Shown here: in pieces, positions 2,732 through 32,121 of the stretch
How the letters are laid out: the number at the start of each line of letters is the position of its first letter
How positions within the stretch are numbered: position 1 is the stretch's first letter
Assembly: GCA_027622555.1 (NCBI GenBank)
Contig: JAQBYJ010000067.1
Span: 1 to 32,143, forward strand
Origin: Verrucomicrobiota bacterium
GTDB lineage: Bacteria > Verrucomicrobiota > Verrucomicrobiia > Opitutales > UBA2995
Length of the DNA: 32,143 nucleotides
Direction: 5' to 3'
Notes under the pieces: generated by a model
Databases searched by the model: none
Seen by the model: the letters and a program-made list of their open reading frames with translations, nothing else
Told to the model about the DNA's origin: nothing
Position numbers and translations under genes: made by a program

Positions 2732-4202
<1,471 letters not shown>

Positions 4203-4505
4203 GACCGTGATTTGGAATTAAAACCTTATGCGGTTTCCTTCAGAAGCTTCTTGCCGAAAGTTCTCAACTCAAGAGTCTCGGATCGAGCGGTCCCGGCAAT
4301 TAAGTAGTCGGCAAAGTCTGCTCTCCCTTTTCGATACAGCTTTATAATAGCGCACAAGCGACCCGGATCATCAAAACTGAATGCGGAATCCTCCAAGAGT
4401 TGCTCGAGGACTTGGGCCCATGCTTTCCGATCAAATCCATAGACAGCTTCGAGGGCCCATGAAGTTTCCATCAAGACCAGATCGAGAATTCTTATCGACC
4501 GCTCT
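4203..4505 (-). repeat. Left copy of 303-bp direct repeat (vapC fragment)
   Basis: This segment matches 6085-6387 base for base apart from scattered substitutions, with a constant offset of 1882 and no indel that I could see. It covers the last ~85 codons of vapC plus 23 bp downstream. The identity stops abruptly on both sides. The two copies flank the AbiE pair in the same orientation. Confidence 0.88.
4226..4474 (-). pseudogene. Truncated PIN-domain (VapC-like) fragment
   Basis: The 82 residues match the C-terminal two thirds of the full PIN protein encoded at 6108-6488, beginning at METSW. The first ~45 residues are missing, including the first catalytic aspartate (D5 in the full copy). 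The last acidic residue is also changed: TFDKK in the full copy is TFGKK here. Both losses make nuclease activity very unlikely. It is not preceded by an antitoxin gene but by the 3' end of abiEii. A translation start would need TTG or the internal ATG. It is best read as a remnant of the duplication that now flanks the AbiE pair. Confidence 0.85.
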
Positions 4506-5961: not shown

Positions 5962-6084
5962 TATAAAATGCAATACAAAGTTATTCAATGTAATCTCCCA
6001 TTTTCTGCCAGCGCGCCAACCGACGATTGGGAAGTAGGAGCAAAAAGATAAAAATGAACGAGCTGATTCTGCTCACCGCTCGGC

Positions 6085-6387
6085 GACCGTGATTTGGAAT
6101 TAAAACCTTATGCGTTTTCCTTCAGAAGCTTCTTGTCGAAAGTTCTCAACTCAAGAGCCTCGGATCGAGCGGTCCCGGCAATCAAATAGTCGGCAAAGTC
6201 TGCCTTCCCCTTTCGATACAGCTTGATCATTGCGCGCAAGCGACCCGGATCATCAAAACTGAATGCGGAATCCTCCAAGAGTTGTTCGAGAACTTGGGCC
6301 CATGCTTTCCGGTCAAATCCATAGACAGCTTCGAGGACCCATGAAGTTTCCATCAGGACCAGATCGAGAATTCTTATCGACCGCTCT
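6085..6387 (-). repeat. Right copy of 303-bp direct repeat (within vapC)
   Basis: This is the partner of 4203-4505, in direct orientation. Here it forms the 3' part of an intact vapC gene, which makes this copy the likely source or the original target. Recombination between the copies would delete 1882 bp, that is, the whole AbiE pair, and leave one vapC. Confidence 0.88.
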
Positions 6388-8339: not shown

Positions 8340-10967
8340 ATGAAGACAGTATTTCGATGCTCCAAACGAGCTTTGTTTGGATTACTGACCGTGGCATTGC
8401 CGCTCGCCCTGGTGGCGCAAGAAGATAGCGAAGACGTTTACGAACTCAGTCCTTTTACCATTGATGAAGAGGAGAACGTAGGCTACCTCGCTATTTCTAC
8501 GCTTGCGGGAACAAGGCTGAATACCCCATTGCGGGATGTTGGAGCTGCTATTTCCGTTCTTACCGAAGAATTGTTTGAGGATACGGGTGCGGTCGATGCC
8601 TCTACCATTCTTTCCTATGCCACAAGCTCTGAGGTTGGAGGCGTGCAAGGTAACTTTGCTGGTAGTTCCGTTAACTCAGCACGAGCGGATTTCACCAACC
8701 AGAGAATTGAACCCCAAAGCAACCAACGTGTCCGCGGACTGGCGTCCGCCTCTTTAACCAGAAACTTTTTTCTGACGGACATTCCTTTCGACACCTACAA
8801 TTCTACGCGAGTCACTATAAACCGGGGACCGAACTCATTGCTGTTTGGCATCGGGAGTCCCGGGGGTGTTATCAACAATGGTATTCAAGGGGCAATGCTG
8901 GGTAGCAACTTCGGTGAATTCAGCATTCGTGTTGGAGAAAATAGCAGTCATCGTGAGTCTTTTGACTATAATCAGGAACTTATTGATGGGCGTCTGTCAG
9001 TAAGGCTCTCGGGATTGTACGACGACACTCAATACCAGCAACGACCGGCATTCGAAATCGATAAACGAATCTCGGTCGCTCTTCAGGCAGTTTTATTCAA
9101 AAATGAAAACTCTGACATTTTGGGTCAGATGACCTTGCGAGGTAACTTCGAATCGGGGTCCATTCATGGGACTCCGCCGATTGTAATTCCGCCGAGTGAT
9201 GGAGGCTTGTCGGATTGGTTTAATCCTCCGGATTCTTCACTTCCTAACTACACGGGTCTCTCCTTGCCGGGTTGGGTGACAGATGGCAGTTTTATACGAA
9301 AAATTACCCTCGATGACCGCAATGTCTACTTCAATAGAAATAATGTGCCGGGGAGCGTTATTGAACCTGGATTTGTGCAAAATTTTATTGTTTTTAGGGA
9401 GCCGGACTCCCAAGAAACAGGCATGGGTTTGGCGGACTCCAGCATTGATGGGATGATGTTCAACATGAAGTTTAACCTTGCAAAAACTGGACCCAATGTT
9501 GGGAGACCTCAATTCGATATGTTCAGAACAGCCAGCTTTAACTCTGGCAATTTTACTCCCGGATTTGCCGTGCCATCGATTCAGGACAGGAATGTTTTCG
9601 ATAATGAAAACAACTTGATCACCGGTAAAACGAATTCGATATCTCATGACTTTGACGCTACCAACCTGGTTCTGGAGCAGTTGTTTTTAAATGGAGAGGC
9701 AGGTGTCGAATTTGCCTATGATAAGCAGCACTATGACAGGTGGTGGCAACTTCCCTTCAGTCAAGGTATGAACGGCGGAGGCACCGGTAATTATGACGTC
9801 GCCATTGATATCAGTGAATATCTTGGAAACGGTGAGCCCAATCCGAATCTGGGGAGGCCCTATATCCTTGATGCCCCCTATGGTGCCTACAATACTAGTC
9901 AAACAGACCGTGAGGCCTATCGTGCGACCGGCTTTTACTCGATCGATTTCGCCGAAAAGACCGACAATCTGGGTTGGCTCGGTAAGCATATTTTCACCGC
10001 ACTTTACAATAAACAAACCATTGATGATTTGAGTAGAAATTACGGGAGTTCTTGGGTAAATGATAGAACGGATGTACGGACCAATCACGAGAATGCCGGA
10101 ATCAATACTTTTTTCACGAATGTCATCGCTATCGCCTATGTAGGGGACTCGCAATTGGGTGCGCAATCCTACTCCGATATTCGAATAGCTGATCACATTT
10201 CAGTTCCCGTATCCAAAGATGGCGATACGCACAAGATAACTTTCTACGACAGAGCAACCGGACTTGTTCAAACCAGCGATAGTTTCAGTGTCCGGCAAAC
10301 CTTGAATGGTGGAAACATCGAACGGCAAGAAGTCGAATCTGAAGTTTTCAGTTGGCAAAGTTATTTTTTAGGCGGGCATTTGGTGGGGCTTGCAGGTTGG
10401 AGAACCGATAAATCGACCATTTTCGAGCGGGCAGGTAATGTTCGCTTGCCCAGCGGCATATGGGATGAGGGTAATCTCGTTCTAAAAGATGATCCCTCGT
10501 TTGAAACGAGCGGCGACACTTTCACTTGGAGCGTAGTAGGTCACCTTCCTTTCGAATTACCCGGCGGTACAGATCTGAGTGTTCATTATGGAGAATCAGA
10601 AAATTTTGAGCCGGTTGGAGTTCAACGGAACAGCTTTGGTGAGGTTTTGCCTCCTCCCAGTGGAATAACCAAAGAGTATGGATTTACTGTAGGAATGTTA
10701 GACGACAAACTTTCCATGCGGTTTAATTGGTTCGAAACGGATAGTGCGGGAGCTAATGCGAATATGCCGCGTATAAACCTCGTCAGTACTCATGGAGCTT
10801 CTTTATTTAGTCGATTTATTAACGCAGTTAATAGTGGGATGACACTTGATGAAGTTCTCGAGTTCTCCGGTGGTCCTGAAGCCGTTGGTACGTATAGCTC
10901 TTTGCAAGAACTATTTGACGATTTAAACTTGTTATTCCCCGTTGCTTGCTTCGGGGTCGGTGACTGA
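8340..10967 (+). pseudogene. TonB-dependent receptor, 3' end lost at IS200 element
   Basis: The 875 residues begin with a signal peptide (about 1-26, ending LALVAQ), then the Opitutae-type entry YELSPFTID and a plug domain (about 48-185) with TLAGTRLNTPLRDVGAAI, NRGPNSLLFG and GSPGGVINN. Beta-barrel sequence follows to about residue 865. Such receptors import oligosaccharides or siderophores across the outer membrane with TonB energy. The reading frame runs into the left hairpin of an IS200-type element: the last residues (PVACFGVGD) are encoded by hairpin sequence, and the C-terminal barrel strands and terminal aromatic residue that outer-membrane assembly normally needs are absent. The missing 3' part is not found beyond the element. 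The product is therefore probably non-functional. It has its own upstream region with a palindrome at 8149-8178. Confidence 0.85.
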
Positions 10968-11495
10968 AGGGAAAGTTTGAAAACCGCAGGTTTTCATGAA
11001 AAGAGTGTTTTGTGGATTCGACGAAACGAGTGAACAAAGCGAGTCATTGCGCCTGGCAGATTCATTATCATTTGGTGATGCCCGTAAAATATCGCAAGGC
11101 CTTGATTGATGAACGAGTGGAACGCGTTATGAAGGAGACAGCCGAGGGCATAGGGGAACGCTATGAAATCGAAATGGAGGCATTGGGTATGGATAAAGAT
11201 CACGTGCATTTGTTATGCGGTGCTCATCCGAAGATAGCACCGGGAAGTATAGTGAGAAAATTTAAAAGTATCTTGGCTCGGGAATTGTTTGGAAGAGAGA
11301 AGTGGTTAAAGCAGGAACTGTGGGGAGGCAGCTTTTGGAGTTCAGGTTATTACGTTGGGACGGTGGGCGAAAAAGGGAATTGGACTTCGGTTGAGACCTA
11401 CGTTTTGGAACAAGGCAAACCGAAAGAGGAATTGCGTCAGCTAAGATTATGGTAAGAATGTTTCTGTTTCAGATACCCCGATGCTTGCTTCGGGG
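10937..11495 (+). mobile_element. IS200/IS605-type element with matching end hairpins
   Basis: A Y1 transposase gene lies between two nearly identical 20-nt hairpins in direct orientation: CCCCGTTGCTTGCTTCGGGG (10937-10956) and CCCCGATGCTTGCTTCGGGG (11476-11495). One base differs. Hairpins at both ends, no inverted terminal repeats and no target duplication are expected for IS200-type elements. A further small hairpin, GAAAACC/GGTTTTC, lies at 10979-10995. The true tips may extend a little past the hairpins. Both neighbouring genes are cut at this element. Confidence 0.75.
11012..11455 (+). CDS. tnpA: IS200-like Y1 (HUH) transposase TnpA
   Basis: The 147-residue protein is a complete IS200/IS605 TnpA. 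The metal-binding HUH pair is H64 and H66 (DHVHLL). The catalytic tyrosine is Y130 with the helping Q134 (TYVLEQ). The family's WQIHYHLVMPVKYRK, FWSSGYYVGTVG and KFKSILARELF segments are all present. The enzyme cuts and joins single-stranded DNA at hairpins by a 5'-phosphotyrosine intermediate, usually during replication. The start is GTG at 11012, because the nearby ATG at 10996 is in another frame. It sits alone between two end hairpins with no TnpB. Nothing suggests inactivation. Confidence 0.9.
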   Translation: MDSTKRVNKASHCAWQIHYHLVMPVKYRKALIDERVERVMKETAEGIGERYEIEMEALGMDKDHVHLLCGAHPKIAPGSIVRKFKSILARELFGREKWLKQELWGGSFWSSGYYVGTVGEKGNWTSVETYVLEQGKPKEELRQLRLW

Positions 11496-13548: not shown

Positions 13549-14301
13549 ATGAAATATCCTATTCTTCCCCTATGTGTTTTCTTCTTACTCCTCGGATTAT
13601 CCCTCTCAGCCAACCACCACGAACTGGAACCTGGCTTCAAGGCTCTGTTCAATGGCAAGGATTTGTCCGGCTGGGACGGATTGAGCCAATTCTGGCGAGT
13701 CGAGAATGGTGCTATCGTGGGTCAGACTACTGAGGATAACAAAGCGCCTCACAATACCTTTCTGATATACCGGGGTGGTTCATTCGGGAATTTCGAAATG
13801 CGATTCCAGTATAAGGTGGATGGCCAGAACTCGGGTATGCAATACCGATCCTAAGATGTCGGCGACCATGTCATGAAGGGACTGCAGGCCGATTTTGAAC
13901 CTCGCTGGCATCTGGATAAGAATGATTCAAGTAAACCACCCAGAGACCGTTTCACTGGAATGTTTTTTGAGGAAAAGCACAGGATGTTCATGGGCCAACG
14001 CGGCGAAGTGGTCATCGTGCGTAACAATCCGGAAAATACAAAAAAGCCGCGGATCGAAAAGATAGGCTCTGTCGGTGATCCCGATGAACTGGAAAAAGCC
14101 ATCAAGCGCGATGACTGGAATGACTACACCATCATCGCCAACGGGAACCAGTTCATCCACATGGTGAATGGAGTCGTCCTGAGTATTGGAATCGATGAGG
14201 ATGAGGAGAACTTTAAAGCCTCCGGGTTGATTGGGCTACAATTGCATGCGGGTATACCAATCAAAATCCAGGTGAAGAATGTTCGTATTCGGGAGTTGTA
14301 G
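13549..14301 (+). pseudogene. DUF1080 (3-keto-disaccharide hydrolase type) protein with in-frame TAA
   Basis: Two pieces, 13549-13854 and 13873-14301, are in the same frame, separated by TAA at 13852-13854 and the codons DVGDHV. Read through, they give 250 residues: signal peptide (MKYPILPLCVFFLLLGLSLS), then a complete concanavalin-like DUF1080 domain with FKALFNGKDLSGWDG, WRVENGAIVG, FEMRFQYKV, NSGMQYRS-stop-DVGDH, MKGLQADF, DWNDYTIIANG and GLIGLQLHAGIPIKIQVKNVRIREL. Family members cleave 3-keto-glycosides or bind carbohydrate in the periplasm. The interrupted codon sits where relatives usually have a lysine or similar (SKD), so AAA to TAA is a likely change. Everything else in the domain looks intact, so the mutation may be recent. 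Confidence 0.85.
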
Positions 14302-14337
14302 GTATTACATTCATTCACCAGCCCCACCATTTTAGGA

Positions 14338-16890
14338 ATGAAACGCATGGTTAAAAACATACGCAGGTTATTTGTAGGAGCGAGCTTGCTCGCGAATCAG
14401 TGGACTACGGGATCGCGAGCAAGCTCGCTCCTACATTTTAAATCATCCATCGCGGTATGCGCGCTTTTAGTTTTAGCCAGCCTGGTCCAAGCATCGGACC
14501 GGGATCTGGTCCAGGTTCCTCCTGCGCAGATTGGACTGTCTGAAGATGCCCTCATTGAAATTACCAAATATCTGCAAAGCCAGGTGGATGATGGGGTTGT
14601 TACCGCAGCGGTTGGCATGGTAGCCAGGCATGGGCAGATTGGCTACTTTGAATCTGTTGGAGAGTGCGACACCGGCTCACTGTTTCGCCTTGCCTCCATG
14701 ACGAAGGCGGTGACCTCGGTGGCTGTTATGCAGCTTGTGGAAGAAGGATCGATAAAACTGAAGGATCCTGTTTCGCTTTACTTTCCGAGTTTTGCTTCGC
14801 TCAAAGTACTTGGTGAAGATGGAGTCACGCTCACAGATGTAGCGGCGGAGCCTACGATTCATCATCTACTGACTCATACATCAGGGATCGGTTATGGTTG
14901 GTTTGGAATCCCGCAGGATGCGTTTTATCAAAAAGCAGGGGTGCACGATCTGCTGGTTCCCAATATAGATACTCTGGAAGAGCACACGGATAAACTCTCC
15001 CAATTGCCTCTGGCCTTCCAACCTGGAGAGCAATGGATGTATGGACAGTCCATCGATGTGCTGGGTCGCGTCATCGAGGTCGTGTCAGGCTTAACTCTGC
15101 AGCAATACTTTCACGAACGTATATTCAGACCCTTAAAAATGGAGAATACGCGTTTCTACGTGAATGAGGTGCAGCAGAAACGGTTAGTCCCCCTTTATTC
15201 ACCCGATGAGAATGGAGGATTGGTCAAAGTCGGTAGTGAAATCTTATCAGCTGGTTCTATCAATTATTCAGCTGACTTATCCAACGAAGGCCAGGGCAAG
15301 TTATACGCCGGCGGAAGCGGGTTGGTTGGTTCGACCTTGGACTATATGCGTTTTCTGCAGATGCTTTTAAATAAAGGCAGTCTGGAAGGTGTGAAGATTT
15401 TAGATGAATCAACAGTCGACTTGATGACGCAAAATCACATCGGAGAGTTAAGCGTTCCCTTCCCGGGTCATGGGGACGGCTTTGGTTATGGATTTGGGGT
15501 ATTGACCGAGCGAGGCAAGGCTGACGATTTGGCTTCTGTCGGCACCTATTCCTGGGGAGGGATCTTTAACACGTATTATTGGGTGGATCCGCAGGAAGAA
15601 TTGATCGGCCTGGTAATGACGCAAATATTTCCGAACGCCCATGTAACGATCAGGGAGGATTTCAAGAAACGTGTTTATGGGGCCATCGATGACTCTGGAT
15701 TTGTGCGTCGTTATTGGTACGAACAAGGCGAAGAACATGGTAATCCTTATTTTAACCGGAGACAACTGCGTGTAAATAGCGCCGGAATAGGTGTCCATCC
15801 ACGCCATGCCACAAGAACCGAAACGCAATCCAGTGGAGCGATGCGGATTCTAATCGAAGAAGATCTGCGATCTATCGACGGAGCCAATCTATATTGCGAA
15901 ATCTGGGGAGGTCATCCAGGAACCAGTCATAAACGCGTATCCATTAATGGGAGACAAAAGATTTCGATACCGGAGAATGGAACTGCCTATGATAACTGCA
16001 CGCACCTTTATCCTACGTTCAATTTAGCACCGACCGATTTGGTGAATGGTTACAATACCTTGCAGTTTGCTTGCGATAAGCCCGGGTTGGAGTGGGGGCA
16101 TTTTATAGTCGAAAATGCAGCTTTGGACGTTCGTTTATCCAGGGATCACCCCGACCTCCAGTCTAGAGGTTTAGGGAGTTTTGAGGCGACGGTGTCGGCC
16201 AACACTCAGGGCGAGACCATCCTTTTTGAAATAGAAAGCAATCAATTGGAAGCGGTTTCCGAAGTCGTGTATCAAGCTCGCTACTACGGCTACGATGAAA
16301 ATGGCAATGGTTTCGAAACGGATTGGCATGGCATGACAAAGGAGCGGAAACCATACGGTATGCTTGGGGCAGGTCGTGGTAAAACGCACCGGCTTGAATG
16401 GGATTTATCAATGCTTCCAGCACAGACACAGATAGAAGTTAAAGCGACGGTTTCATTTCAAGATCATCCTAATCTACATTTCCAGGCGGCCAAGGTAGGT
16501 GGCCTCGAGGTTGCGCCACGAGAGAATGTCGAAGTTTCCTTGTTTAGCTCTAAAGATTTACCGAACCCATTCTGGTCCAGGGTCAATCGTAAGAAGGCGT
16601 GTACCATAAATATCGACATTGATCCCTCGGACATCGAACAAGCTGATCTCCATGTGATTTCTTGGACGGGAGGTGCCGGGGAGGTAAAAGAATACTTTCA
16701 GCTAAACGGTCATTTTATTCCTGTGGCGGAAGGCTCCGGGCACGAGGTTGAATACTCTGTGACTTCCATTGATCCTTCCTGGCTGAAAAAAGGGGAGAAC
16801 CGGTTCGAGTTGGTGAGCGATACTGAACACCATGGTATCGAGATCCTATTACCCGGTCCTGCTTTGATGATTCGCAGCCGAAACCGGTAA
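14338..16890 (+). CDS. Exported serine beta-lactamase-family hydrolase with C-terminal extension
   Basis: The 850-residue protein has a beta-lactamase class C/DD-peptidase-like domain at about 60-430. The S-x-x-K motif is S120-M-T-K123, and the second-motif tyrosine is Y235 (MYGQS, where class C enzymes have YxN). HGDGFGYGFG (about 380) occupies the place of the third motif. These enzymes act as esterases or peptidases; resistance to antibiotics is not implied. Residues about 480-850 form additional beta-rich domains without a family I can name. The N-terminus is odd: a REP inverted pair (14373-14435) is translated as about 21 residues between MKRMVKNIRRL and the hydrophobic core SSIAVCALLVLASLVQA. 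No start codon lies between the repeat and that core, so the upstream ATG is needed. It opens a tight plus-strand run; the next start is 12 bp after its stop. Confidence 0.87.
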   Translation: MKRMVKNIRRLFVGASLLANQWTTGSRASSLLHFKSSIAVCALLVLASLVQASDRDLVQVPPAQIGLSEDALIEITKYLQSQVDDGVVTAAVGMVARHGQIGYFESVGECDTGSLFRLASMTKAVTSVAVMQLVEEGSIKLKDPVSLYFPSFASLKVLGEDGVTLTDVAAEPTIHHLLTHTSGIGYGWFGIPQDAFYQKAGVHDLLVPNIDTLEEHTDKLSQLPLAFQPGEQWMYGQSIDVLGRVIEVVSGLTLQQYFHERIFRPLKMENTRFYVNEVQQKRLVPLYSPDENGGLVKVGSEILSAGSINYSADLSNEGQGKLYAGGSGLVGSTLDYMRFLQMLLNKGSLEGVKILDESTVDLMTQNHIGELSVPFPGHGDGFGYGFGVLTERGKADDLASVGTYSWGGIFNTYYWVDPQEELIGLVMTQIFPNAHVTIREDFKKRVYGAIDDSGFVRRYWYEQGEEHGNPYFNRRQLRVNSAGIGVHPRHATRTETQSSGAMRILIEEDLRSIDGANLYCEIWGGHPGTSHKRVSINGRQKISIPENGTAYDNCTHLYPTFNLAPTDLVNGYNTLQFACDKPGLEWGHFIVENAALDVRLSRDHPDLQSRGLGSFEATVSANTQGETILFEIESNQLEAVSEVVYQARYYGYDENGNGFETDWHGMTKERKPYGMLGAGRGKTHRLEWDLSMLPAQTQIEVKATVSFQDHPNLHFQAAKVGGLEVAPRENVEVSLFSSKDLPNPFWSRVNRKKACTINIDIDPSDIEQADLHVISWTGGAGEVKEYFQLNGHFIPVAEGSGHEVEYSVTSIDPSWLKKGENRFELVSDTEHHGIEILLPGPALMIRSRNR
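14373..14435. repeat. REP inverted pair inside a signal-peptide coding region
   Basis: A 23-bp sequence beginning TGTAGGAGCGAGCTTGCT (14373-14395) returns as its perfect reverse complement at 14413-14435, with 17 bp between. Each half is itself a hairpin (GCGAGC/GCTCGC). The head and stem closely resemble well-known REP sequences of Pseudomonas. The 63 bp are a multiple of three and contain no stop in the hydrolase frame. Confidence 0.85.
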
Positions 16891-19220: not shown

Positions 19221-20212
19221 CGATGAATTCTCAAAGTAATTGTAGGAGGGGCTTTATGCCCCGATCGCTCGAAAGGCTACCAAAAAATCGCGGGATAAAC
19301 CCGCTCCTACAGTTTAGGAACTATAAGGTAGGAGTGAGGTTGTTATTTGTCACCAGACGGCTCGAAGATGTATATAAAGCTAAGGCAAGACGCCTGTGCT
19401 ACTTTATGCTGACTATTATTCTATTCGGATGCTCTCAGGAAAATAGTTCACCGTTCGTTATTCTCACCGACGGCATCGATGAAACTGCGGGCAATGTTCC
19501 ATGTTACATTATTACTACCCCAATAGCCACCTACTACCTTGAAAAGGAAGGTGGGGGACTTTCCAGCATGCTCGACGTCGAAGGAGTCGATTGGATAGGG
19601 TTTCATAAGGATCTAGGGACAGAGTCGAAGGGTGAATACCGTGGATTTCCCAACGCCATCCATAAACAGGATGGAAGTTATTTTCATGCTCGAAACGCAG
19701 GCACGGATCCATCCACTTCAACGATCACGATTCAAGAGCCCAATCGCATTCAAATCGTATTTACCTCTGAGAATGGACAATGGGAAGGTGTGTGGGATTT
19801 TTCACCGACGCACTGTGACTTTACCATGAATCGGGTGAGTCCCGGTCGGCAGTACTGGATTTTGTATGAAGGCGTTCCGGGAGGGAAGTTGGATAAGACG
19901 GACTTCTGGTATTCTTCGAAGGACGAAGTAGCTCATTCGATCGATGAAAAGCAGAACGATGATTTACCTGGCCCTGAATGGATAGCGTTTGGGGATGTCA
20001 CTTCGCCTCGAATGATAGTCCTGGTTAATCATTTGGACGATGTATTTCCTGACCGTTATTACAATATGCGGGATGAAATGACGGTATTTGGATTTGGTAG
20101 AGCCGGAGGTGAAAAATATTTGGATAGTCCACTCTCTTTCACTATTTGTTTCGTAGAGAGTACAGACTATCCGGTAGTTAAGGACTCTGTATTCACTCAA
20201 CTAAATCGATGA
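19217..20212 (+). CDS. Unknown lipoprotein, probable
   Basis: The longest frame (331 residues, TTG at 19217; ATG at 19223) has a lipobox at 69-72 (LFGC, with C72 the likely lipidated residue) after the hydrophobic YFMLTIILFG. The mature part (about 260 residues) is beta-rich, with several aromatic-rich strands: CYIITTPIATYYLEKEGGGLSSM, DWIGFHKD, FDFSP-like WEGVWDFSP, and GRQYWILYEGVPGG. I do not recognise the family. The stretch before the lipobox is built mostly of a REP pair (19241-19311) and a further repeat unit (19383-19402), so the original start has probably been displaced and is uncertain. The stop overlaps the next gene by 4 bp (ATGA), so the two are probably co-translated. Its place after the sugar dehydrogenase suggests a carbohydrate-related role, by context only. 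Confidence 0.65.
   Translation: MTMNSQSNCRRGFMPRSLERLPKNRGINPLLQFRNYKVGVRLLFVTRRLEDVYKAKARRLCYFMLTIILFGCSQENSSPFVILTDGIDETAGNVPCYIITTPIATYYLEKEGGGLSSMLDVEGVDWIGFHKDLGTESKGEYRGFPNAIHKQDGSYFHARNAGTDPSTSTITIQEPNRIQIVFTSENGQWEGVWDFSPTHCDFTMNRVSPGRQYWILYEGVPGGKLDKTDFWYSSKDEVAHSIDEKQNDDLPGPEWIAFGDVTSPRMIVLVNHLDDVFPDRYYNMRDEMTVFGFGRAGGEKYLDSPLSFTICFVESTDYPVVKDSVFTQLNR
19241..19311. repeat. REP inverted pair with TTTAT loops
   Basis: The left unit reads TGTAGGAG-GGGC-TTTAT-GCCCC-GATCG. The right unit, read on the minus strand, is TGTAGGAG-CGGG-TTTAT-CCCG-CGAT. Head and loop are the same while the stem differs on both sides in a pairing-preserving way. The unit pair recurs, with the heads turned inward, at 27496-27558. 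Confidence 0.85.
19383..19402 (-). repeat. REP-like unit (GTAGCACAGGCG head)
   Basis: Read on the minus strand: GTAGCACAGGCGTCTTGCCT. AGGC and GCCT can pair around the centre. It starts with the GTAG tetranucleotide like the other repeats but has its own stem. It lies within the doubtful 5' part of the lipoprotein ORF. Confidence 0.45.
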
Positions 20213-24380: not shown

Positions 24381-24471
24381 TGTAGGAGCTGCTTCAGCTG
24401 CGATTCCCTGGGAACGCCAAGCCCCAGCTTGGCATCTAATAATTAAGATCGCAGCTGAAGCAGCTCCTACA
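24381..24471. repeat. Composite REP element: 24-bp inverted pair with a third hairpin inside
   Basis: A 24-bp sequence starting TGTAGGAGCTGCTTCAGC (24381-24404) returns as its perfect reverse complement at 24448-24471. Each half is a hairpin (AGCTG/CAGCT). Between them lies a separate hairpin, GCCAAGC-CCCA-GCTTGGC (24416-24433), preceded by GGAAC. A related but interrupted copy of that central unit is at 31581-31638. The element fills most of the gap between the oxidoreductase and the second sulfatase and could end transcription. Confidence 0.85.
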
Positions 24472-24508: not shown

Positions 24509-25942
24509 ATGCTCCGCAAACTTTCCCTTGTTTATATTGTTCTTCAGTTGCTAGCGTTTAAGGCTAGCGCCACTAGTCAACCCAACATCCTTATAATGAT
24601 CGGGGATGACTGCACTTACTTGGACTTGCCTATATTTGGAGGGGAAACTGCAAGGACTCCGCATATTGATAAACTCGCTTCAGAGGGGATCATTTTTAAT
24701 CGGGCATTCCTCTCCATGGCGATGTGCAATCCTTGTCGCACAGAGTTATATACCGGTTTGTATCCTGTTAGCAACGGATCCGCATGGAATCACTCCGCTG
24801 CGCGAAATGGACTGAAGAGCATGGTTCACCATCTAGGTGATCTTGGCTACCGGGTTGGTATTAGCGGTAAGGTGCATGTCGGGCCTGACGAAGTATTTCC
24901 ATTCGAAAAGGTCAGGGGCTTGCAAGGAGGCAATTCGAGAGAATCCGAGGGCATCGACACCGATGCCTTAACTGCCTACATGAAGCAGGATCCGTCACAA
25001 CCTTTTTGCCTGGTGTTGGGTTTTTCTTCGCCGCATGCGCCGTGGACTGTGGAGGCACCTGAGCACTTGGCTTCGAATAAAATTCAGTTGCCACCGAATA
25101 TTGCGAATACAGAGGAAACGCGTACTGCCTTTTCACTGTACCTGTCAGAAATTGAGGAACTAGACCGGGGGGTGGGACTGAGTCTGCAAGCTCTCCAGGC
25201 GTCAGGCCAGGCGGCGAATACACTGGTGCTGTTTACCAGTGAGCAGGGTTCAATGTTTCCCGGTGGGAAATGGACCAACTGGAATTCCGGTGTCCATACG
25301 GCCATGGTAGTTCGTTGGCCGGAGGTTGCAGCAAAGGGGACGCGAACGGACGCCTTGATTCAGTATGCGGATGTGGTACCGACTCTCGTCGAGGCTGCTG
25401 GGGGCGACTGGCAGTCGCTTGAATTTGACGGGTCCAGTTTTCTTCCGGTCATCAGGGGTGAAGAGAATGAACACCGCGCCTTTGCCTACTGTATGCACAA
25501 CAATATACCCGAAGGACCTCCATACCCCATTCGTGCAGTTACCAACGGGACTTATTTATACATTCGGAATCTCAGGCCGGATCTCCTGTTTATAGAAAAA
25601 CACATCATGGGGCGGCATCGCTTTCATGACTTCTGGCCTAGCTGGTTGGCGGAATCCGGGCCATGGAACAATCCGGATCGCGAAATGAACCGACAGAGTG
25701 TCGACTTGGTCCATCGATATTTGAGACGTCCGGTTGAGGAATTTTATAAAGTATCCGACGACCTTTACTCTATGAATAATCTTGCTGATGATCCCGACTA
25801 TTATTCAGTGAAGGATGTCCTGTCTGCGGAGCTGGATACGTGGATGCAATCTGAAGGAGATCCTGGAGCTTTAATTGATAATGAGGACGACTGGCGTGCC
25901 TCTCTAGAAGGAAAGCACTTCCAGCCTATAACTATACGATGA
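24509..25942 (+). CDS. Exported S1-family sulfatase with CNPCR active site
   Basis: The 477-residue protein has a short signal peptide (MLRKLSLVYIVLQLLAFKAS) and the sulfatase core: NILIMIGDDCTYLD (metal site), C73-N-P-C-R77 in MAMCNPCRTELYTGLYP (formylglycine site), VGISGKVHVGP, FSSPHAPW and VLFTSEQGSMFPGGKWTNWNSGVHTAMVVRWP. The active-site motif fits C-x-P-x-R, so aerobic FGE could still mature it, but the usual serine is a second cysteine. The last metal region reads SEQGS instead of the common SDNG/ADHG. The gene overlaps the permease gene by 4 bp (ATGA at 25939-25942), suggesting coupled translation. Confidence 0.9.
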   Translation: MLRKLSLVYIVLQLLAFKASATSQPNILIMIGDDCTYLDLPIFGGETARTPHIDKLASEGIIFNRAFLSMAMCNPCRTELYTGLYPVSNGSAWNHSAARNGLKSMVHHLGDLGYRVGISGKVHVGPDEVFPFEKVRGLQGGNSRESEGIDTDALTAYMKQDPSQPFCLVLGFSSPHAPWTVEAPEHLASNKIQLPPNIANTEETRTAFSLYLSEIEELDRGVGLSLQALQASGQAANTLVLFTSEQGSMFPGGKWTNWNSGVHTAMVVRWPEVAAKGTRTDALIQYADVVPTLVEAAGGDWQSLEFDGSSFLPVIRGEENEHRAFAYCMHNNIPEGPPYPIRAVTNGTYLYIRNLRPDLLFIEKHIMGRHRFHDFWPSWLAESGPWNNPDREMNRQSVDLVHRYLRRPVEEFYKVSDDLYSMNNLADDPDYYSVKDVLSAELDTWMQSEGDPGALIDNEDDWRASLEGKHFQPITIR

Positions 25943-27435: not shown

Positions 27436-27495
27436 GTAAAACGATGCTTACTTCTGCTGTTACTTTCTATCTACCATCGAAATACTCTAAGAGCA

Positions 27496-27558
27496 ATCGC
27501 GGGATAAACCCGCTCCTACAGCATAAATAAAACTGTAGGAGGGGCTTTATTTCCCGAT
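27496..27558. repeat. REP pair with inward heads, just before a sulfatase start
   Basis: The units are the same two as in the pair at 19241-19311 but in the opposite arrangement: ATCGCGGG-TAAAC head-in (27496-27520), then TGTAGGAGGGGCTTTATT (27534-27558). The second unit has a decayed stem (GGGGC against TTCCC). It ends 10 bp before the ATG of the sulfatase, where it could affect ribosome access. Confidence 0.8.
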
Positions 27559-27567
27559 CCTCGAACT

Positions 27568-31638: not shown

Positions 31639-31997
31639 TAAGTCGCTAATAAATCAACTCCTGGCTGTTATGGAGAAAGAAGTTTAACCGCAGATTACGC
31701 AGATTTACACAGCTACGATCTGGAAAGTTCGAACAGAAAAATCAATGCTTATCAGTGAAATCAGTGGGTTAAAAAAAGAAAAGAAAGAACCTACAACAGT
31801 GCTAAAAGAACTCGACCAACGCATCCAAAGGTTTTTAATCTGACCTTCGAACTTCGCGGTTCCAATGATAACCCCAATGAACAAAAAACCACAACCAGAC
31901 AGTCGTCTAAATGCGATGAGTCTCCCCAAAACTGCTAACGTCATTGCCTCGCATTAGACACTTACACGTTATGTCGCCTACGACTATAAAGTGGTCT

Positions 31998-32121
31998 AAA
32001 AATGAAATCCTTCTCCAACAGTTAAAGGATCGTAGATCATCGTAGCATGATCTATGTCCAAAAATGAAATCCTTCTCCAACAGTTAAAGGATCGTAGATC
32101 ATCGTAGCATGATCTATGTCC
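31998..32121 (+). repeat. Two tandem copies of a 62-bp unit with a hairpin
   Basis: Positions 31998-32059 and 32060-32121 appear identical. Each contains GTAGATCAT-CGTAGC-ATGATCTATG, a stem of about nine pairs with one G-T pair. The hairpin head GTAG matches the other repeats in the window. Perfect identity points to a recent duplication, by slippage or by a transposase acting on the hairpin. Confidence 0.85.

Follow-up and report, generated by a model that had tools for sequence, protein, structure and literature searches.

A REP pair in frame at the signal-peptide junction of an exported hydrolase, and the recurrence of such pairs in exported proteins of one genus

The window analysed here is a 32,143-nt stretch from the draft assembly of a bacterium of the Verrucomicrobiota. 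It contains a gene for a serine hydrolase, in which the PF00144 domain (Pfam) covers residues 77-434, and near the 5' end of this gene lies a pair of inverted REP sequences (REPIN). The main features are listed in the table. The reading frame is open across the pair: MKRMVKNIRRLF[VGASLLANQWTTGSRASSLLH]FKSSIAVCALLVLASLVQASD. A reading made from the sequence only had described a pair of 63 bp, in frame and stop-free, placed between the basic N-region of a signal peptide and its hydrophobic core, and all of this was found again in the ORF. The hydropathy maximum of the signal is located 4 residues after the repeat. No in-frame ATG, GTG, or TTG occurs between the pair and the core, as had also been claimed, and the first one after the pair is 49 codons on, within the mature part. 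The claimed N-region, MKRMVKNIRRL, is basic and 5' of the pair, but its first codon is probably not the start. AGGA at 14334-14337 directly abuts ATG 14338 and is 9 nt from ATG 14347, so the latter is the likelier start of the hydrolase. Removal of the repeat would give RRLFFK in the N-region (14362-14442), which is near the twin-arginine motif RRxFLK and would be split by the repeat; this may be chance.

Features of the hydrolase locus and of the five-species sulfatase
Feature	Position or locus	Strand	Remarks
Host gene, exported serine hydrolase (PF00144 family), 850 aa	14338..16890	+	ORF; Pfam E 1.4e-57
Likely original N-region MVKNIRRLF, start ATG 14347	14347..14373	+	AGGA 14334-14337, spacing 9
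REP pair (REPIN), TGTAG...CTACA	14373..14435	.	63 bp; translation VGASLLANQWTTGSRASSLLH; perfect inverted repeat
Left REP arm, TGTAGGAGCGAGCTTGCTCGCGA	14373..14395	+	23 nt
AGGAG and in-frame TTG in left arm, possible rival start	14376..14388	+	in the frame of ATG 14338; probability of being unpaired 0.00
Spacer between REP arms	14396..14412	.	17 nt
Right REP arm, inverted	14413..14435	-	23/23 complementary to left arm
Hydrophobic core IAVCALLVLA of signal peptide	14449..14478	+	translation
Signal-peptidase site VQA|SD, likely	14485..14493	+	AxA-like motif
Five-species sulfatase loci with 72-bp REPIN	L228-L231, L251

The pair has the form of GTAG-class REPs, a short imperfect palindrome with a GTAG foot (TGTAGGAGC GAGC TT GCTC GCGA), and its two inverted arms are 100% complementary. 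The genome (6.0 Mb, 238 contigs) contains 71 pairs of the pattern GTAGGAG-N34-64-CTCCTAC, compared to 0 for the reversed control pattern, and the predicted RNA fold at the site is 6 SD below that of shuffled sequences; a chance origin of the pair is therefore excluded. Many sister REP classes have a different stem. The exact arm sequence of the window's pair was absent from the other loci fetched, and an Rfam search of the window gave no match. Three other REP pairs in the window (19242-19310, 24381-24471, and 27495-27559) are outside signal peptides. The second and third end shortly 5' of sulfatase starts at 24509 and 27568, and the third is in tail-to-tail orientation.

Upstream of the hydrolase, a DUF1080-like gene (13549-14301) is interrupted at 13852-13854 by an in-frame TAA; the corresponding position in three orthologues is occupied by different sense codons. 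This TAA could be a nonsense mutation, a case of recoding, or an assembly error, and it raises the possibility of a decaying operon or of errors in the assembly. An ORF for a Y1 (IS200-like) transposase (11051-11413), the best hit of the genome, is flanked at 10934 and 11473 by two hairpin-like copies of 23 nt that resemble each other, and the region 10934-11495 looks like an IS200-type element. The window also contains a 300-nt direct repeat (4198-4497 and 6080-6379; 94% identical, 1882 nt apart) and, close to the contig end, a 62-nt tandem duplication (31994-32117; 98% identical).

Comparison with orthologues indicates that the 63-bp REPIN is an insertion in the hydrolase gene. The only full-length syntenic orthologue in the genus (L010) is 3' of the same DUF1080-like gene. 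A repeat-free orthologous signal had been set as the test of insertion, and L010 provides it: its signal peptide is ordinary, 26 aa long (MRRFTLRSLIVFTGLCFGPWWLSAKA), and lacks the repeat. Counted from ATG 14347, the window's signal minus the insert is 28 aa long. L010 is the nearest orthologue, and at 66% identity in the shared part (pN 0.23, pS 0.85) it is too diverged for a base-level reading of the empty site. A more distant orthologue (L069) is also without the repeat, and in L070 a lone REP lies 5' of the gene, in the gap.

About 120 distinct REPINs of the genus (119 analysed) were fetched with their flanks and scanned for open frames. Thirteen of the 119, a census of pairs with exact GTAGGAG ends that takes in a subset of the pairs per genome and misses diverged copies such as the G001 insert in L228, are in frame near the starts of exported proteins, at codons 6-13 after the first start. 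The hosts are the window's hydrolase, nine sulfatase-like proteins (recognised by a PNI...DD motif downstream of the signal), two cytochrome-like proteins (with CxxCH), and one other large exported protein. Examples are a lipoprotein-type sulfatase, MNWRRF[CRSILVRAPFACVDLKVANKFAPT]ILAVATTLAFISGC, and the signals MKKYIHTFLCA[VGGALRPDPFVRLQSNRGINPLLQ]FSAVFSCLLALVTQSIAADSRPN and MVTLRNSLRF[VGAALAAIRKPLIWVAAKAAPT]LIIIFSLHLSSFC. In 11 of the 13, 0-2 residues separate the repeat from the start of the hydrophobic core; the other two (L202 and L161) have further REP-like sequence between the repeat and the hydrophobic stretch. The first 10 codons after the repeat are free of ATG, GTG, and TTG in all except L181, L196, and L209 (10/13). 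No convincing case within a mature domain was found among the 119 REPINs. In another genus of the order, one sampled locus (L271) has a REPIN in frame within an apparent ATP-dependent helicase gene, resembling what is reported in Opitutus.

The insert lengths in signal peptides fit frame preservation. REPIN length is 1 mod 3 in 10/13 signal-peptide cases compared to 31/106 others (Fisher p=0.0012), and with the flanking T and A such a REPIN amounts to 63 or 72 bp. After allowing for the lengths that leave the frame open, the bias has p=0.0095 (0.018 minus one orthologous case). Peptides from open REPIN frames are in general basic (mean charge +2.3), which would suit an N-region. Selection on charge was considered and rejected: the REP peptides in signal peptides are no more basic than those of other open REPIN frames (+2.6 vs. 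+2.3, p=0.52), so the charge belongs to the repeats in general.

Filled and empty sites were found for several other host genes. One sulfatase (L135) has a 72-bp in-frame insert at the same position in 5/5 species with a full orthologue (G000, G001, G002, G003, and G005). Its orthologues in the sister genus have no recognisable REP and an unusually long signal, and in a distant genus the signal is short. Two of the sister-genus orthologues (L278 and L279) have very long signals, one with a segment like a decayed REP peptide (SPRGLNPILPLL). For a second sulfatase (L175), the insert is absent in four species, and the segments flanking the repeat, when joined, match the signals of the repeat-free orthologues. 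The insert of L181 is common to one other species and absent in three, and that of L128 is common to one species and absent in one. Four further loci (L235, L241, L232, and L242) are insert-free homologues of a host gene other than the hydrolase. The pattern in L135, L175, L181, and L128 indicates that inserts come and go while the genes persist.

We consider it probable that a REPIN inserted at the junction of N-region and core in the hydrolase signal, that it is translated, and that the protein is exported with its mature enzyme unchanged, as one case of an event recurrent in the genus. The sequence-only reading had seen here a mobile repeat that turned into protein sequence at a tolerant site, and L010, the 12 additional in-frame cases, and the filled and empty sites support this. 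A GTAG-class REPIN would have landed between the basic N-region and the hydrophobic core, adding 63 bp and 21 residues in frame. Ribosomes starting at ATG 14347 (or 14338) would melt the hairpin and translate the repeat. The extra residues would lengthen an N-region that is still basic, leaving the core and the cleavage site untouched, and the insert would be removed along with the signal peptide, so that its effect on the mature enzyme is presumably neutral.

The choice of site may reflect both target preference and survival. The outward flanks of REPINs are A (93%) and then T-rich at positions 3-4 (58% each), and REPINs may insert beside T-rich DNA, of which the hydrophobic core would be the first stretch in an exported gene. 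Within genes, only signal peptides may offer T-rich sites and also tolerate about 20-25 extra residues, and inserts elsewhere in genes would be lost. Mobilisation would be by a RAYT (TnpA-REP) transposase. The genome has 21 Y1_Tnp hits, two of them at loci with REPs on both sides (L090 and L093), indicating that likely mobilising genes are present. None of the Y1_Tnp loci was matched to the exact stem of the hydrolase pair.

The sulfatase with the insert in five species bears on whether such inserts have a function. Its insert has pS 0.30, compared to 0.69 and 0.77 in the flanks and 0.82 in the mature part, with pN/pS 0.71, indicating weak amino-acid constraint. One arm pair has a compensatory A-T to G-C change (in G001), and the left REP class differs between species. 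In our view, the low pS and the class switch point to gene conversion between REPs or to repeated insertion at one site; the hairpin of this insert may also be under selection. Simulated neutral drift leaves the insert stop-free with a probability of 0.25, so that a stop-free frame by itself does not argue for selection. Spacer similarity does not decide whether the insert descended vertically, since the orthologous REPINs show about the same similarity as other members of the class. A bolder proposal, to which we give little credence, is that REPINs of the genus land systematically in signal peptides and that some inserts are kept for function, with the early-codon hairpin or the longer basic N-region tuning how sulfatases and other secreted enzymes are translated and exported. 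It is somewhat less likely that the REPIN as such is kept by selection, either because an mRNA hairpin at about codon 10 slows early elongation or because a longer N-region tunes targeting. The low pS and the compensatory change would agree with such selection, but the weak amino-acid constraint, the class switching, and the lack of the insert from many genes in sister species argue against it. Better-kept hairpins in genes were also looked for and rejected, with arm pairing of 18.7 of 21 in signal cases and 18.3 elsewhere (p=0.79).

Another unlikely course of events is that the REPIN fell just 5' of, or on, the original start and that an upstream ATG was captured later, in which case the present N-region would be former untranslated DNA. 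The L010 gene starts 29 codons before the conserved VQV, not far from the count of 25 codons after the repeat in the window, and it opens one base past the upstream stop codon, with MRRFTLRSLIVFTGLCFGPWWLSAKAPYFVQVNPAQIGLS; both points are consistent with a captured ATG. On the other hand, MVKNIRRLF has the make-up typical of a basic N-region and an AGGA at good spacing, the repeat-free signal is close in length to that of L010, and the L175 segments on either side of the repeat together match repeat-free signals.

A start at TTG 14386, with the repeat bringing its own ribosome-binding site and start and being only partly translated, is very improbable. The AGGAG of the left arm (14376-14380) sits 5 nt before this in-frame TTG (14386-14388), but both are wholly base-paired in the 23-bp stem of the predicted RNA fold, and no start is found within the repeat in the clear signal cases L128 and L135 (eight frames checked). 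The claim that the repeat must be translated accordingly holds in that no start follows the pair before the core, and is softened by the TTG, since translation could begin there. Least likely of all is that the hydrolase gene is inactivated or unexported and the open frame through the repeat accidental: by chance, a frame through a REPIN is open in about one case in three, and the upstream gene has an in-frame stop, but the 850-aa frame is intact, pN is well below pS relative to L010, and in-frame recurrence and cross-species retention speak against accident.

The preferred reading, a translated REPIN at the signal junction, means that secreted enzymes offer a direct test of how far signal peptides tolerate mobile DNA and of whether new bacterial protein arises from REPs. 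The ESPR of autotransporters is an extended signal peptide with a long N-region before a normal core. The genus inserts share this layout, but the ESPR is a conserved protein motif and the insert is a DNA repeat. Rickettsia palindromic elements (RPEs) are, to our knowledge, not confined to signal peptides. They are likewise palindromic mobile repeats found in frame in many unrelated proteins, and they differ in sequence class. RPEs are the classical parallel of translated repeats (Di Nocera et al., 2013; PMC3733652).

REPINs (PMC3116915) and the RAYT/TnpA-REP system (PMC8266576) share with the elements described here two inverted REPs, a short spacer, dispersed copies, and REP-flanked Y1 genes, but those REPINs are typically extragenic, and RAYT action on the REP class of the hydrolase pair is putative. 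The closest likeness is to GTAG-tagged REP dimers within ORFs, which add 20-30 residues in frame and are richest in Opitutus terrae, of the same phylum (Verrucomicrobia) (Di Nocera et al., 2013; PMC3733652). Those intragenic elements have variable ORF positions, many in DNA-repair and RNA genes, and signal peptides are not mentioned in the main text of that paper (PMC3733652). In our literature searches, neither REPINs in signal peptides nor a signal-peptide hot spot turned up. N-terminal REPs in ORFs were judged mostly extragenic and set aside as start-codon misannotation (PMC3733652), whereas the genus inserts lie at the junction of N-region and hydrophobic core, and most are followed by no usable start. 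GTAG REP dimers that are translated were thus already known, and what is new here is a defined signal-peptide hot spot with comparative evidence.
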